Source: Chloroflexota bacterium (lineage in GTDB: Bacteria; Chloroflexota; UBA6077; FW602-bin22). From it: 64,000 nt of DNA. Positions 1,946-27,770 of this stretch are shown here, one piece after another. The stretch lies in the NCBI GenBank assembly GCA_016875715.1, contig VGOZ01000003.1:1-64000 (forward strand), written 5' to 3'. The position numbers and the translations under genes are program-made. The notes beneath the pieces are model-generated. The model was not told the DNA's origin. It did not search any database and was given only the letters and a program-made list of their open reading frames with translations. Each line of letters starts with the position of its first letter. The first letter of the stretch is position 1.

Positions 1946-2782
1946 TTACTGACCGGCGAGCCACTCGCGCCGAACGACTTCCTCCGCGCCCCCGGCCTTG
2001 CCAATCGCTTGACCGTTGTGGGTCAACTCCACCAGCGCGCCGTTACCGACATGCATGATGATCCGCGTCTCGCCGCGCCAGGTCCGGTGCTCGCCGCTCT
2101 GCAGTATGCCGGAGAAGACGGTCTGCCCATCCACCTCGACCTGCGTCCAGACGCGGCCCAGCGTGCGCGCCTCGATCGTCACGCCACGCGCGGTAGACGG
2201 GACGCTCGCCGGAGCGGTCGGTGCGCCGGTGGGCCGGGGAGTCGCGGCGGGAGCGGGTGTGGCGGTCGGGGGCGGGGGTGTCGTGGCAGTGGGGACTCGG
2301 GTCTGGGGCGCTACGGTCGCCGTGGGCGCTACCCGTGTGGGAGTCAAGGTCGGGGCGGGTTCGTTGGCTGCGGCGGTCAGGATCGACTGATAGCGCGGCA
2401 CGACTTGATAGAGAGCGGCCCCCAGCAGAATCGCGACAATGAGGGTAAGCCCGATGCGCGTGATCTGAATCGTCGACCCGCTCAGCACCGGCCGATCCTC
2501 GACCTCCCGCTGCACTCCGTGCCCGGGCGGCCGAGGATCGATCTCGGCGACCATGCGCTGGGCGTCTCGCGGGTCGAGGCCCAGGTAGACCGCGTAATTG
2601 CGTACCAGTCCACGGGTGAAGACCGGTGGCGGCAGCCGCGTGAATTGCTCGTCCTCCAGCGCCTCCAGATGGTGCCGAGGAATGCGCGTCTGCTGCTCGG
2701 CCTGTGCGATCGTGATCGATCGCCCTTCGCGCGCTGCGCGCAGCAGGCTACCCAACCCGGGCGATCGCGACTCGGGTGACAC
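1946..2782 (-). CDS. RodZ-like HTH membrane protein (DUF4115)
   Basis: A 278-residue protein with an N-terminal Cro/RodZ-type HTH (about residues 8-75, LGSLLRAAREGRSITIAQAE), one transmembrane helix (about 108-128, IGLTLIVAILLGAALYQVV), an extracellular Pro/Thr/Ala-rich linker and a C-terminal DUF4115-type beta domain ending QAIGKAGGAEEVVRREWLAGQ. This is the RodZ architecture, which links MreB to the cell-shape machinery. No mreB or other rod genes are in the window, so a cell-shape role is inferred from family only. The GTG start has a GGGAGG ribosome-binding site just upstream. It lies directly before rimO. Confidence 0.82.
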   Translation of the reverse strand: MSPESRSPGLGSLLRAAREGRSITIAQAEQQTRIPRHHLEALEDEQFTRLPPPVFTRGLVRNYAVYLGLDPRDAQRMVAEIDPRPPGHGVQREVEDRPVLSGSTIQITRIGLTLIVAILLGAALYQVVPRYQSILTAAANEPAPTLTPTRVAPTATVAPQTRVPTATTPPPPTATPAPAATPRPTGAPTAPASVPSTARGVTIEARTLGRVWTQVEVDGQTVFSGILQSGEHRTWRGETRIIMHVGNGALVELTHNGQAIGKAGGAEEVVRREWLAGQ

Positions 2783-2851
2783 CGACCCTCCCGGCTCGCG
2801 CCCGCGCTGATCCTACACAGGAAGCTGTTCGGTCACAACACAACCCCACGA

Positions 2852-3577
2852 TCAGGTCCGTCGGGCGACGATCAGGTGCGAGAGTCCGAAACGACGCAGG
2901 GGGGTACTCTCACACGCGTAGAAGACCGCCCGGAGGAGAGCGCCGACCCCGCGGCGGCGGGCGACGATGTTGTCGAAACCGGGGTAGACATACTCGTGCG
3001 CGATGATCTCTAGGCCCGAGTCCTGGAACAGCCGCTCTATCTGACCGTGGGTATAAGCCCGGACGTGCGGCGCCAGTCTCTGCCGAACGGAATCGGGCAG
3101 ATAGCCCACCAGGGGAATGTTGCCGAAGACAAACCGCTTTCCCAGATACACCCCGTGAGTCTCGAAAGGGAAGAGCCGATTTGGCGCATAGACGATGAGT
3201 CTCCCGCCCCGCCTCAGCACCCGCGCCGCCTCCGCGATGGTGCGGCGATCGTCGGCCACGTGCTCGATCACTTCGTTGAGAAGCGCGACGTCGAACCGCG
3301 CGTCGTCGTACGGCAGGTTCTCCCCGACTGAAAGGCGAATGTTTGGCAGAGTGGCGCTGGCGCGTGCCACGCGCTCGGGATCAATGTCGACACCGTGGAC
3401 GTCGCCGCTGAACTCGCGGAACTTCCGCACGTAGGTGCCGATGCCACAACCGATGTCGAGAATCGCGCGTCCTTCTAGCGGGGCGTAACGCCGGATCAGG
3501 GCGAGCCGTCGGTTCTGACCGAAACGCCACACATAGCTCGGATGGCCGAGGTGAATCCAGGATCGGTCGTCGGACAC
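2852..3577 (-). CDS. Class I SAM-dependent methyltransferase
   Basis: A 241-residue Methyltransf_11/23-type protein. The SAM-binding motif I is ILDIGCGIGTYVRKF, the acidic end of beta-2 is GVDIDPE, and the post-motif LLNEVIEHVADD and VLRRGGRLIVYAPN are typical of UbiG/BioC-like enzymes. The substrate cannot be told. The GTG start gives VSDDRSWIHLGHPS. It stands alone, about 70 bp from rodZ and divergent from infC. Confidence 0.8.
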   Translation of the reverse strand: MSDDRSWIHLGHPSYVWRFGQNRRLALIRRYAPLEGRAILDIGCGIGTYVRKFREFSGDVHGVDIDPERVARASATLPNIRLSVGENLPYDDARFDVALLNEVIEHVADDRRTIAEAARVLRRGGRLIVYAPNRLFPFETHGVYLGKRFVFGNIPLVGYLPDSVRQRLAPHVRAYTHGQIERLFQDSGLEIIAHEYVYPGFDNIVARRRGVGALLRAVFYACESTPLRRFGLSHLIVARRT

Positions 3578-3667
3578 GTGCAGCCATCGTAGGATGGGTT
3601 ACGGCGACACGCCAATCGCGCGTGGTATGATCGCCGACGCAATCTTCGAGGTGCGAGGTGAGGTTTA

Positions 3668-22542: not shown

Positions 22543-23742
22543 GTGTCAGGTCCCCTCGCCGGGTTGCGCGTTCTTGAATTGACCAACTTCATCGCCGGAC
22601 CCTTCTGCGGCTGCCTTCTGAGCGACCTGGGGGCGGATGTCATCAAGGTCGAGATCCCAGGTGTGGGCGATCATGCCCGCGTGCAACCGCCGATCGTCGG
22701 CGGCGATGGCGTCGGATTCATGGCCCTCAATCGCGGGAAGCGCAGCCTGGCGCTGAACATCAAGCGGGATGCCGGAAGAGAGGTCTTCCTTCGATTGGTC
22801 GACTCGGGCGATGCGCTCATCGAAAACATGCGCCCCGGCACGCTGGCCGATCTCGGTCTCGCGCCGGATGCGCTGATGGCACGGAATCCGGGTCTCATCG
22901 TTTGCAGTCTCTCCGGCTTCGGGCAGACGGGTCCATGGAGCGAGCGCGCCGGACTCGACCTGATCGCTCAGGCGATGTCGGGAATCATGAGCATCACCGG
23001 TGAACCCGGCGGCGCGCCCGTGAAATGCGGCGTGCCAGTTGCGGATCAGGTCTCCGCACTGTATGGCGCTCTGTCCATCACCGCCGCGGCGCACGAGCGG
23101 GCGCGTTCGCGCCGCGGCCAGCACATCGATCTGAGCCTCTTCGAGTGCGCGCTTTCGCTGGGCGTTTGGGAGACGGCGGCGTATTTTGGCACCGGCATCG
23201 TGCCGGGACCGATCGGCTCGGCACATCGCGCCGCGGCGCCGTACCAGGCGTTTCGCTGTGCCGACGGCTACATTACGTTCGGCGCGGTGACACCGGCGAG
23301 CTGGCACGGCGCGTGCGTGGCGCTCGGGCTGGAGCATCTGGAGCACGATCCCGGGTACGCGACGATCGCCGACAGAAAACTGCGAGAGATCGAACTCGCA
23401 TCGCAGATCGAGGACGTCACCGTTCAGCGACCGCGCGCCTACTGGCAGGGACGGCTCGAGATGGCGGGTGTGCCTTGTGGACCCATCCTGCGCTATGACG
23501 AGACGCTCGCGACGGATCACACCGTGGCGCGCGAGATGGTCGGGGAGTTCACTCATCCGCGCGCGGGGAGCATGCGCGCGGTCGCAAGTCCGGTGAAGAT
23601 GGGCCGGACCGCGGTGAGGCGCCCATCGGCGGCGCCGCTCCTGGGCGAACACTCCCGCGAGATCCTCCAGGAGATTCGGATCGGTGACGAGGAGATCGCC
23701 CGTCTGATCGATATTGGGATCGTCCAGGAGGGACGGCCGTGA
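22543..23742 (+). CDS. CaiB/BaiF-family (class III) CoA transferase
   Basis: 399 residues. LRVLELTNFIAGPFCGCLLSDLGADVIKVE, the acidic catalytic region with NRGKRSLALNIK, and LIVCSLSGFGQTGPW are diagnostic. Enzymes of this family move CoA between carboxylic acids such as formate/oxalate and carnitine. GTG start 22543. Its stop overlaps the next gene as GTGA, suggesting coupling with a glutamine-amidotransferase-like hydrolase. Confidence 0.9.
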   Translation: MSGPLAGLRVLELTNFIAGPFCGCLLSDLGADVIKVEIPGVGDHARVQPPIVGGDGVGFMALNRGKRSLALNIKRDAGREVFLRLVDSGDALIENMRPGTLADLGLAPDALMARNPGLIVCSLSGFGQTGPWSERAGLDLIAQAMSGIMSITGEPGGAPVKCGVPVADQVSALYGALSITAAAHERARSRRGQHIDLSLFECALSLGVWETAAYFGTGIVPGPIGSAHRAAAPYQAFRCADGYITFGAVTPASWHGACVALGLEHLEHDPGYATIADRKLREIELASQIEDVTVQRPRAYWQGRLEMAGVPCGPILRYDETLATDHTVAREMVGEFTHPRAGSMRAVASPVKMGRTAVRRPSAAPLLGEHSREILQEIRIGDEEIARLIDIGIVQEGRP

Positions 23743-24428
23743 GCGGTCCCTCGATTCTGTTGACGGTGGCGGCCCGGGCGCGCGATGAGATCGTCGAGCA
23801 ATACCGCTCGTTCGTGGCGCGCGAGGGCGCCCGTGTCACGGTCGTTCGGCCGGGCGATGCCGTGCCAGCGCGGATCGACGGTCTACTTCTGAGTGGAGGG
23901 GCCGATGTCGACCCGCGCGAGTACAGTCACGAGCCGGGATCGTTGACCCGCCCCGAACCGGAGCGGGACGCGTTCGAGCGTCCGCTCCTCGCGCGAGCCA
24001 TCCAGGCAAGTACGCCGGTCCTTGCGATCTGCCGCGGCTTCCAGCTTGTGAACGTCGTGTACGGCGGCACGCTCATCCAGCATCTGGAGGGGCACAGTCG
24101 AGATGAGATGGGCGAATCGCGCCTCCACCTCGTGCACGTGCGCCCGGGCACCCGGCTACGCGAGATTCTTGATGCGGGGATGGTGCAGGTGAACAGTTCG
24201 CATCATCAGGGAGTGGCCGACGATCAGATCGCACGCGGGCTTCACGTCTCGGCGCGGACCAACGAAGGGCTCATCGAGGGGATCGAGGCGCCAGATCGCT
24301 GGGTTGTCGGGGTGCAGTGGCATCCCGAGAGGAGCGACGAAGTCGATTCCAGCCATCGACGTCTGGCGGCGAGTTTCGTGCGCGCATCAGCCGTCGCCGA
24401 CGGTGCTTCGCGCCTGCCTGCGGTCTGA
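23739..24428 (+). CDS. Gamma-glutamyl-GABA hydrolase-like class I amidotransferase (peptidase C26)
   Basis: 229 residues of PuuD type. The nucleophile Cys is in PVLAICRGFQLVNVVYGG, the catalytic His-Glu in VQWHPERSD, and LSGGADVDPREY and NSSHHQGV are family blocks. Family members hydrolyse gamma-glutamyl amides. It is translationally coupled to the CoA transferase, which may indicate a shared catabolic pathway; the substrate is not evident. Confidence 0.87.
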   Translation: MSGPSILLTVAARARDEIVEQYRSFVAREGARVTVVRPGDAVPARIDGLLLSGGADVDPREYSHEPGSLTRPEPERDAFERPLLARAIQASTPVLAICRGFQLVNVVYGGTLIQHLEGHSRDEMGESRLHLVHVRPGTRLREILDAGMVQVNSSHHQGVADDQIARGLHVSARTNEGLIEGIEAPDRWVVGVQWHPERSDEVDSSHRRLAASFVRASAVADGASRLPAV

Positions 24429-24456
24429 AGTCGACATCGGCGAGACGCCGACCCGG

Positions 24457-24984
24457 CTACTCGCCCAGAAATCCCTGCGCGGCGCCCAGATGCGGCAGAA
24501 CGAAACTCTGCGTGCACTGGGCGATCTGGATCAGGTGGGCTCGATCGTGATGCACCCACTCGTTCACAATGTCCCCCACGGTGAGGAAGCCCACCTTCGG
24601 GTGATCGCCGCCACGGGTCAGATCGTCGCCGCGAAGGCGGAACACCAGAGCGACGCCCTCGTGGCGCATGGTCTGGAACTCGCGCGCAAGATCCGGCAGA
24701 CGGCGCGCGCAGTCGTTACGGCTAGCAGCGACCTCGTCGGGATCCCACCCCTGCAGCGCGGGACGATCCGCGGCAAGAATCTGGCGGATCCGCCCGGCAA
24801 AGCCACGCCGCTCTGCCTCGATGAGATGCCCCACGACCTGCCGCGCGCACCACTCCCGCGGCGCCGGATGGTGCGCCGACGCAGCTTCGGTCATCGCCAG
24901 TACCTCGCGGAGGATCGCCTCGCCACTCGCGCGAATCAGCTCCGATAGCTCGCCGGGACGAAGCGCCGGAGTCGTGTCACTCAT
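24457..24984 (-). CDS. DinB-family metal-binding four-helix protein
   Basis: 175 residues from ATG 24984 (MSDTTPALRPGELSELIRAS). The DinB/YfiT pattern is visible: a His in VVGHLIEAERRGFAGRI and two His in VHHDRAHLIQIAQ give the three-His metal site. Many such proteins use low-molecular-weight thiols as cofactor. The track ORF extends past the divergent ThDP gene start and is trimmed here. A second DinB-like protein lies at 27.8 kb. Confidence 0.8.
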   Translation of the reverse strand: MSDTTPALRPGELSELIRASGEAILREVLAMTEAASAHHPAPREWCARQVVGHLIEAERRGFAGRIRQILAADRPALQGWDPDEVAASRNDCARRLPDLAREFQTMRHEGVALVFRLRGDDLTRGGDHPKVGFLTVGDIVNEWVHHDRAHLIQIAQCTQSFVLPHLGAAQGFLGE

Positions 24985-25009
24985 CGAAGCGCGATTGTAG
25001 ACTGGCTCG

Positions 25010-26581
25010 GTGACCCACACTGCCGCCGACCTCGTCGCAGGAGCCCTCGCCCGCTCGGGCGTAGTCGCGTTGCCCAACCTCTCTGGCAATCACATTATGT
25101 CGTTCTACACCGCTCTCGAGAGATCCGGAGTCCGTCTCGTCCATACTCGCCACGAGGCTGCGGCGGTGCACGTCGCTGACGCAGTCGCCCGCCTGACCGA
25201 CCGACCGTGCCCAGCTCTCGTTACCGCGGGACCGGGCTTCGCCAACACGCCAGGCGCGCTCTATACCGCGCTGCAGGCGCAGTCACCGGTGGTGCTCCTG
25301 GCCGGTGCCATCGAGGAGGCATTGCTCGGCCGGCCGGCGTTCCAGGCGATGGATCAGGTCGCGATGAGCCGCGATCTGGGCATTCCCGCGCGACTCGTCC
25401 GAGCGTCCACCGCCCTTGCCGACGTGGGTTGGGCCTTCCGCGGGGCGGATCGCGGAGTTCCTTCGCCCCGCGCGCTGCACCTCTGCGCCGACGTCGGTAG
25501 ACGGACAATCCCGGAACCCGTCCGAGCGATCGCGATGCGCGCGCGACGGCGGCACGCCGATGCCGCGTCCATCCGCACCACAATTGACGCCCTGCGCCGC
25601 GCGCGCCGTCCCCTCATCGTCGGGGGACCGGTACTGGCGCGCGGCGCGGGGCGCGCGCTCTTGCGGCGGAGCGAGGAGATCGGTATCCCCGCGGTGGCGC
25701 TGGAGAGCCCGCGCGGCCTCGGGGATCCGGGCCTTGGCGGAGTCCGGGATGTCCTCCGCGAGGCCGATGCGATCGCGTTCGTGGGCAAGCCGTTCGATTT
25801 CGCGATCGGGTATGGACAGGCGCCTTCGGTGGCCGGCAACGCCAGGCTCGTGCGGCTGGCCGAGGGGAGGTCCGGACCGGGGTCGCTCGCCCCATCTACC
25901 CACCCGACTCTGGCGCTCACCGCGCTGCTCGACGCGTGCGACGTTGACCGACAGGCGGATGGTGGGTGGCTCGCTCGAACACGCGATCTGCGCGACTGGC
26001 GTCCGGCCGTGCCCGATGCCCCCTCGGCCGGGGCGATCCATCCCGGCCGGATCGGGCTAGTCGTCGAGAGAGCGCTGCGGGAGTCCGATGTCCTGGTCGC
26101 GGACGGTGGCGAGTTCAGTCAGTGGGTGCAGGCGTTCGTACGCCGGCCGGAACGGGTGCTGAACGGACCGGCCGGGGCGATCGGCGGCGCGCTCCCGTTC
26201 GCAATCGGCGCGCGCCTCGCCCGGCCCGATGCTCGAATCATCGCGATATCCGGCGATGGCGCCGTCGGCTTCCACCTCGCCGAGTTCGAAACCGCGGCGC
26301 GCGAGAACCTGCCCTTCGTCCTCCTCGTCGGCAACGACCGGCTCTGGAACGCGGAATCGGTGATCCAGAGCCGCTTCGGCGGTCCACCACTGCGCTCGCT
26401 CGATCTCTCCGCGGCACGTTACGATCAGGCCGCCATCGCCCTGGGTGGTTACGGCGAACGGGTGGAGACGGAGCCGGACCTGATCCCGGCGATCGAGCGC
26501 GCACTCGCATCGGGCAAGCCGGCGCTGGTCGAAGTGGCGATTCTGCCTGTCCCGGCTCCTTCCTACGCGCCAACCGTCTGA
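25010..26581 (+). CDS. Thiamine-diphosphate-dependent enzyme, acetolactate-synthase-like
   Basis: 523 residues. The N-terminal PYR domain has the cofactor Glu in HTRHEAAAVHVADAVARL and VTAGPGFANTPGALY. A middle domain follows, then the C-terminal PP domain with GDGAVGFHLAEFETAARENL and the Asn of VGNDRLWN. This matches the AHAS/pyruvate oxidase/benzoylformate decarboxylase group. No regulatory ilvN subunit is near, so a catabolic decarboxylase is as likely as acetolactate synthesis. GTG start, divergent from the DinB gene by 25 bp. Confidence 0.86.
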   Translation: MTHTAADLVAGALARSGVVALPNLSGNHIMSFYTALERSGVRLVHTRHEAAAVHVADAVARLTDRPCPALVTAGPGFANTPGALYTALQAQSPVVLLAGAIEEALLGRPAFQAMDQVAMSRDLGIPARLVRASTALADVGWAFRGADRGVPSPRALHLCADVGRRTIPEPVRAIAMRARRRHADAASIRTTIDALRRARRPLIVGGPVLARGAGRALLRRSEEIGIPAVALESPRGLGDPGLGGVRDVLREADAIAFVGKPFDFAIGYGQAPSVAGNARLVRLAEGRSGPGSLAPSTHPTLALTALLDACDVDRQADGGWLARTRDLRDWRPAVPDAPSAGAIHPGRIGLVVERALRESDVLVADGGEFSQWVQAFVRRPERVLNGPAGAIGGALPFAIGARLARPDARIIAISGDGAVGFHLAEFETAARENLPFVLLVGNDRLWNAESVIQSRFGGPPLRSLDLSAARYDQAAIALGGYGERVETEPDLIPAIERALASGKPALVEVAILPVPAPSYAPTV

Positions 26582-27137: not shown

Positions 27138-27770
27138 ATGATCCCGCTGATCGCGCACGATGGCCCGACGACAAAGCTGACTGTGTGGTCCGACTACATA
27201 TGACCGTGGTGCTACATCGGCCAGGCTCGGGTCGATACGATCGCGCGGGAGTTCGCCCTCACCATCGAATGGAAATCCTTCGAACTCCACCCCGGAGTCC
27301 CGCCGGAGGGGATGGCTCTCCCCTATAGCCCCGAACGGATCGCGGAGGGACAGGCGCGTCTGGAGACGGCCGCGGCGGCGGAGGGCCTCGCCTACGGTCG
27401 TCGGTCGCACTGGTTCGACACCCGGCCGGCCCACGAGGCCACGCTGTGGGCGGCGGACCTCGGTGCCGCCGATCGTATGAAGCGTGCGATCTTTCCGGCC
27501 TACTTTGTGGAGGGGCGCAACATCGGGTCGCCGGAAGTCCTAGCCGAGATCGCTACGGCGGTGGATCTGGATGGCGCGGACCTGAGAGCCGCGCTCGAGG
27601 AAGGGCGATACGCCGAGGCGGTGAGCGCGCAGTTCGCGGAGGCGCGCGCCATCGGCGTGACCGCCGTGCCCACCTTCGTCATCGCGGATCGCTACGCGAT
27701 CATGGGCGCCCACCCAGTGGAGGGCTTCCGGCAAATGCTCGGCCGCGTCCGAGCGCCGCGACGGGACTGA
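27138..27770 (+). CDS. DsbA/FrnE-like oxidoreductase, candidate selenoprotein (UPWC)
   Basis: The frame from ATG 27138 reads MIPLIAHDGPTTKLTVWSDYI, then TGA, then PWCYIGQARVDTIAREFALT and on to a TGA at 27768, the C-terminal part being the track ORF at 27312. Family members have VWSDYICPWCYIG here, so the UGA replaces exactly the first active-site Cys of CPWC. The cis-Pro loop is intact (AVPTFVIADRYAIMG), as are the helical insert and C-terminal helix. With a tRNA-Sec gene in the same window, the UGA (Sec22) is read as Sec, giving U-P-W-C. Length is about 210 residues, normal for FrnE. A nearby ATG (27114) or GTG could serve as start; no clear SD. A bacterial SECIS hairpin just after UGA was not provable by eye. 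Confidence 0.78.
27201..27203 (+). other. UGA codon proposed to encode selenocysteine
   Basis: TAC-ATA-TGA-CCG-TGG-TGC: the stop lies in frame within a conserved CxxC motif, with coding sequence continuing about 190 codons downstream. The second Cys (TGC 27210) is kept. A simple TGC-to-TGA error is the competing explanation, so conservation of UGA in relatives would decide. Confidence 0.72.

Follow-up and report, generated by a model that had tools for sequence, protein, structure and literature searches.

The gene at positions 27138-27770 of the window (the whole 64,000-nucleotide stretch of DNA analysed here) very probably, at about 95 per cent, encodes a FrnE-type (DsbA-fold) thiol-disulfide oxidoreductase, presumably cytoplasmic, in which selenocysteine (Sec) takes the place of the nucleophilic cysteine; it is Sec insertion itself that we infer. 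The first-pass annotation had read the gene as the Sec form of a DsbA/FrnE-like oxidoreductase, and this overall reading is supported by the alternation of UGA and Cys codons among homologues, by a hairpin downstream of the UGA codon and by the presence of selA, selB and selD in the genome. Coordinates of the features discussed below are given in Table 1.

Table 1. The frnE-like gene, its predicted functional sites and other features of the window
Feature	Position	Strand	Description and basis
tRNA-Sec, anticodon UCA	406-501 (ARAGORN); 409-501 (Rfam)	-	Rfam RF01852, 73.1 bits, cut-off 47
CoA-transferase family III	22543-23742		upstream of the frnE-like gene
Peptidase C26/GATase	23739-24428		upstream of the frnE-like gene
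TPP enzyme	25010-26581		upstream of the frnE-like gene
frnE-like gene, very probable selenoprotein	27138-27770	+	210 aa plus stop; translation with TGA as U, PF01323, FrnE in PDB
Predicted Sec codon UGA, U22 of the U22-P-W-C25 active site	27201-27203	+	TGA/TGY codon counts in 127 homologues
Codon for C25, resolving cysteine and sole Cys of the protein	27210-27212	+	invariant in 52-sequence alignment
Candidate bacterial SECIS hairpin	27216-27236	+	7-bp stem AUCGGCC/GGUCGAU, 7-nt loop AGGCUCG; fits bSECIS model
Codon for P178, cis-Pro position of the thioredoxin fold, motif T-A-V-P-T	27669-27671	+	invariant alignment column

Reading frame, homology and predicted fold

Translation showed that both halves of one protein are in frame with the TGA at 27201-27203, which stands, as had been noticed at first pass, in place of the first Cys codon of a CPWC motif. 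When this TGA is read as Sec, the product has 210 residues (MIPLIAHDGPTTKLTVWSDYI-U-PWCYIGQ...), and a second TGA (27768-27770) serves as the ordinary stop. Standard ORF calling returned 27312-27770 only, an ORF of 152 aa that starts with ATG 27312 and is missing the active site; the gene is thus split by the standard ORF caller in the way that had been described. The reading frame is open from 27042 on and the start codon is uncertain: besides 27138, ATG 27114 and GTG 27111 are alternative in-frame starts, and the homology, which starts near residue 9-13, does not choose among the three. By eye, no obvious signal peptide was seen in the N-terminus (MIPLIAHDGPTTKLTV), and neither a sigma-70-like promoter nor a terminator was detected in the vicinity of the gene. 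The genome assembly has draft status, its contamination being estimated at 5.5%.

The read-through product matched the Pfam domain DSBA (PF01323) over residues 14-201 (E 5e-40). Its best match among PDB sequences was FrnE of Deinococcus radiodurans (residues 12-206, E 2e-33), and Streptomyces SCO1869 was also among the best solved relatives. Because the PF01323 and Deinococcus FrnE matches both cross residue 22, the homology spans the two sides of the TGA, which agrees with the earlier observation that the family is intact before and after this codon. The invariant columns of a 52-sequence alignment were U/C22, P23, C25, P178 and G190, and the segment preceding the TGA, including KLTVWSDYI, is conserved as protein. 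The AlphaFold model of the read-through protein (mean pLDDT 94.7) has a strand at residues 12-18 and then a helix at 23-38; U22 is therefore placed directly before the first helix, which in the model is the usual position of the thioredoxin-fold nucleophile. The top five Foldseek matches were D. radiodurans FrnE structures (TM 0.85-0.87 on the query). Of the features that mark the FrnE subfamily, the protein has the DSBA domain, the cis-Pro and a [CU]xxC where the first helix begins. A C-terminal CX4C motif, which is common in the subfamily and not defining for it, is absent from the window protein. Since C25 is the only cysteine, U22-C25 is the sole possible internal redox pair. No viral relatives were found.

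Upstream of the frnE-like gene, the genes for the CoA-transferase III, the peptidase C26/GATase and the TPP enzyme stand in a row (22543-26581). In one related genome (G002) a TPP enzyme and a CoA-transferase III flank the Sec-frnE gene, and this is the sole relative sharing nearby genes. A conserved neighbourhood was rejected, as the other relatives share no nearby genes with the window, and no operon function is proposed because the neighbours are shared by G002 only.

Codon alternation, candidate SECIS hairpin and Sec machinery

Alignment of relatives had been suggested as a check on the Sec reading, unrelated codons at the position being named as evidence against it. The aligned codon was TGA in 70, TGC in 39 and TGT in 18 of the 127 homologues in which it is covered, that is, 70 TGA, 57 TGY and no other codon, in a sample whose weaker matches were hand-chosen, so that the proportion should not be read as a frequency, and whose counts are inflated by closely related sequences. 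For the 34 loci from named genomes the retrieval patterns included DYICPWCY, and this subset leans towards Cys forms; the loci from the genome search alone comprised 69 TGA and 24 TGY forms. Despite the biased sampling, the absence of any third residue at this codon is informative in the sequences compared. All seven closest relatives, which belong to the same class and are 47-57% identical, have TGA at the aligned codon (7/7), followed by PWC, PFC or PYC. When the Sec/Cys label was placed on a quick tree, 16 changes were needed, at least six of which are forced by well-supported branches.

A distant DsbA-fold homologue (L080 in genome G021, match 1492-2019, + strand) has a TGA in the context DLG-U-PWAY without a second Cys, and may represent a separate subfamily that contains Sec. 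In some genomes FrnE is present as more than one paralogue (L118 and L121 in G304, L098 and L156 in G331); both states occur in G304, where L118 is the Cys form and L121 the Sec form.

A SECIS prediction downstream of the UGA, likewise proposed at first pass, led to the hairpin at 27216-27236. The bSECIS model specifies a loop of 3-9 nt, a G in the first two loop positions, a distance of 16-37 nt from the UGA and a free energy of -7.5 kcal/mol or lower (PMC13188914). All four hold for this hairpin, the loop of which lies 19 nt after the UGA with G at loop position 2, the energy being -8.1 kcal/mol. The Rfam scan reported tRNA-Sec alone, with no SECIS match. Taken singly, the hairpin is modestly unusual: it was matched by 2.7% of synonymous recodings (p 0.03), and an equally good one follows 3.9% of all the window's TGAs. 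Among the homologues, a hairpin that fits the model, with an energy of -7.5 kcal/mol or lower, was found in 77% of the TGA versus 7% of the TGY forms, and the inner stem pair (21,29) was paired in 91% versus 35%, relatedness of the sequences inflating both contrasts. The G+C content of the compared homologues was 0.57 for TGA and 0.54 for TGY forms, and six pair types (CG, TA, TG, GT, GC and AT) occurred at (21,29) in the TGA forms, in which the paired bases of the stem covary. The outermost stem pair, A-U or G-C, was matched throughout in the window gene and the six relatives nearest to it; in the seventh (L071) one stem pair is broken. Because the window hairpin by itself is only modestly unusual, its putative role as SECIS rests on the family comparison, the case from sequence being weak for the single hairpin and strong across the family.

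The tRNA-Sec gene noticed earlier in the same window was identified by both ARAGORN and Rfam. Absence of selA, selB and selD from the genome had been named as an argument against Sec; all three were found with scores above their curated cut-offs, selA on contig C23 (530 bits), selB on C5 (303 bits) and selD on C1 (385 bits). The EF-Tu-like part of selB runs off the end of C5 (L174) and the end of C104 (L177) carries a C-terminal domain, which is consistent with one selB cut by the assembly. The selD gene (L176, G000:C1, about 2679-3647, - strand) contains an in-frame TGA in LSHGAG-U-ACKL and is itself a selenoprotein gene; the TGA of the SelD GAGUACK motif is a classical Sec site. Of 29 genomes in the class, 23 had tRNA-Sec and 26 had selA above cut-off. 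Both were above cut-off in 12 of the 13 genomes of the class that carry a TGA form, the exception being a fragmented genome (G017).

Alternative readings of the UGA codon

One base separates TGA from TGC, and Cys forms are common in the family, so that the protein could be an ordinary CPWC FrnE in which a sequencing or assembly error turned TGC or TGT into TGA. Such an error is extremely improbable in view of the TGA found at the aligned codon in 7/7 closest relatives, which come from separate genomes and are 47-57% identical. A genuine nonsense mutation, leaving a pseudogene or just the 152-aa product from 27312, would agree with the standard ORF beginning at that ATG. This product would, however, have neither the active site nor the strand and helix that come first in the fold, whereas the part preceding the TGA, including KLTVWSDYI, is conserved as protein, and the TGA recurs across the phylum, always opposite Cys and opposite no other residue. 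We therefore consider a nonsense mutation very improbable. Retention of the TGA by all seven closest relatives is the reason for which sequencing error and a dying gene are regarded as excluded.

The UGA might also be decoded as another amino acid, as Trp, or as Cys via a reassigned or suppressor tRNA. Sec was assigned by homology, not by chemistry, and decoding as Cys would suit the alignment equally well. Against this stand the full Sec apparatus of the genome, the use of TGA as ordinary terminator elsewhere, including the gene's own stop at 27768, and the SECIS-like hairpins, which follow the TGA but not the TGY forms; moreover, none of the other long frames tested in the window was shown to have a domain across a TGA. 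Decoding as an amino acid other than Sec is thus highly unlikely, and Sec is the reading that we adopt.

Other read-through genes in the window were sought by ranking 458 TGA-spanning frames by codon usage, a weak score that placed the true frnE-like gene 38th. Ten candidates were compared with Pfam, and in none of them was a domain shown to cross a TGA.

Relation to known proteins and proposed mechanism

A 'DsbA-like protein' with UxxC (COG2761) is one of the selenoprotein families of the Sargasso Sea selenoproteome described in 2005 (PMC1088965), 'DsbA-like' selenoproteins were found in several sequenced bacteria in a 2006 survey (PMC1794560), and 'DsbA-like protein form 1, PF01323, UxxC' is an entry in Table 1 of a 2026 review (PMC13188914). 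Sec forms of the DsbA-like family COG2761/PF01323 have thus been on record since 2005 (PMC1088965, PMC13188914), and the frnE-like gene is a new, well-supported addition to a selenoprotein family already known. It has in common with DsbA-like form 1 the Pfam domain, Sec at the first CxxC residue, a downstream bacterial SECIS (here a candidate) and widespread Cys homologues; in this comparison, made by description, no difference of kind was found, and the gene is another member in a different genome. COG2761 is the FrnE group. New in this work are the window gene itself and the evidence that Sec is widely retained, together with a hint, itself unproven, that the C-terminal CX4C is missing from Sec forms.

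D. radiodurans FrnE (DR_0659; PDB 5cnw, 5co3, 5cp1) resembles the window protein in the location of the active site and in the P-W-C context, but its residue 22 is Cys and it possesses a C-terminal CX4C, whereas the window protein has Sec and C25 only. Regeneration of the active site has been proposed as the role of the CX4C in D. radiodurans FrnE; the motif is missing in some family members, such as Streptomyces and D. maricopensis FrnE (PMC8945050). Among the loci from the genome search the motif was present in 0/69 Sec forms versus 9/24 Cys forms, a contrast that was not significant in independent pairs. As CX4C changes just three times on the tree, its association with the Cys state is a hint, not a result. 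The DsbG-like / Rcas_1661 (seleno)lipoprotein family (NF041057) is likewise thioredoxin-like and includes a UxxC member, but the window protein gives only a partial match to it, below the cut-off (34.8 bits versus 190).

In the mechanism that we propose, SelA and SelD would make Sec-tRNA(Sec) on the tRNA encoded in the window, and SelB would bring it to the UGA, aided by the candidate hairpin. U22 would attack substrate disulfides, and the mixed selenenyl-sulfide would be resolved by C25, yielding a U22-C25 bond. As the protein has no other cysteine, this bond would have to be reduced by an external reductant. The U-P-W-C motif would then be catalytically functional, as had been suggested at first pass; we infer the actual insertion of Sec, the reaction direction and the substrates. 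By analogy with FrnE biochemistry, the likely role is disulfide reduction or isomerisation in the cytoplasm with an external reductant. It is conceivable, but in our judgement rather unlikely as a joint proposition, that the FrnE lineage of the phylum had Sec as its early state and exchanged it repeatedly for Cys, that gain of CX4C accompanied or enabled the change to Cys, and that the Sec forms represent a distinct single-pair (U-x-x-C only) version dependent on an external reductant.

The analysis corrects the annotation of a gene that standard pipelines would truncate, with loss of the active site, and a lineage that uses Sec thereby gains one more well-supported selenoprotein. The set of 70 Sec and 57 Cys homologues, in which the two states have switched repeatedly, offers good material for studying the effect of Sec in a presumably cytoplasmic disulfide reductase, and the same set is useful for relating Sec to the CX4C regeneration motif.
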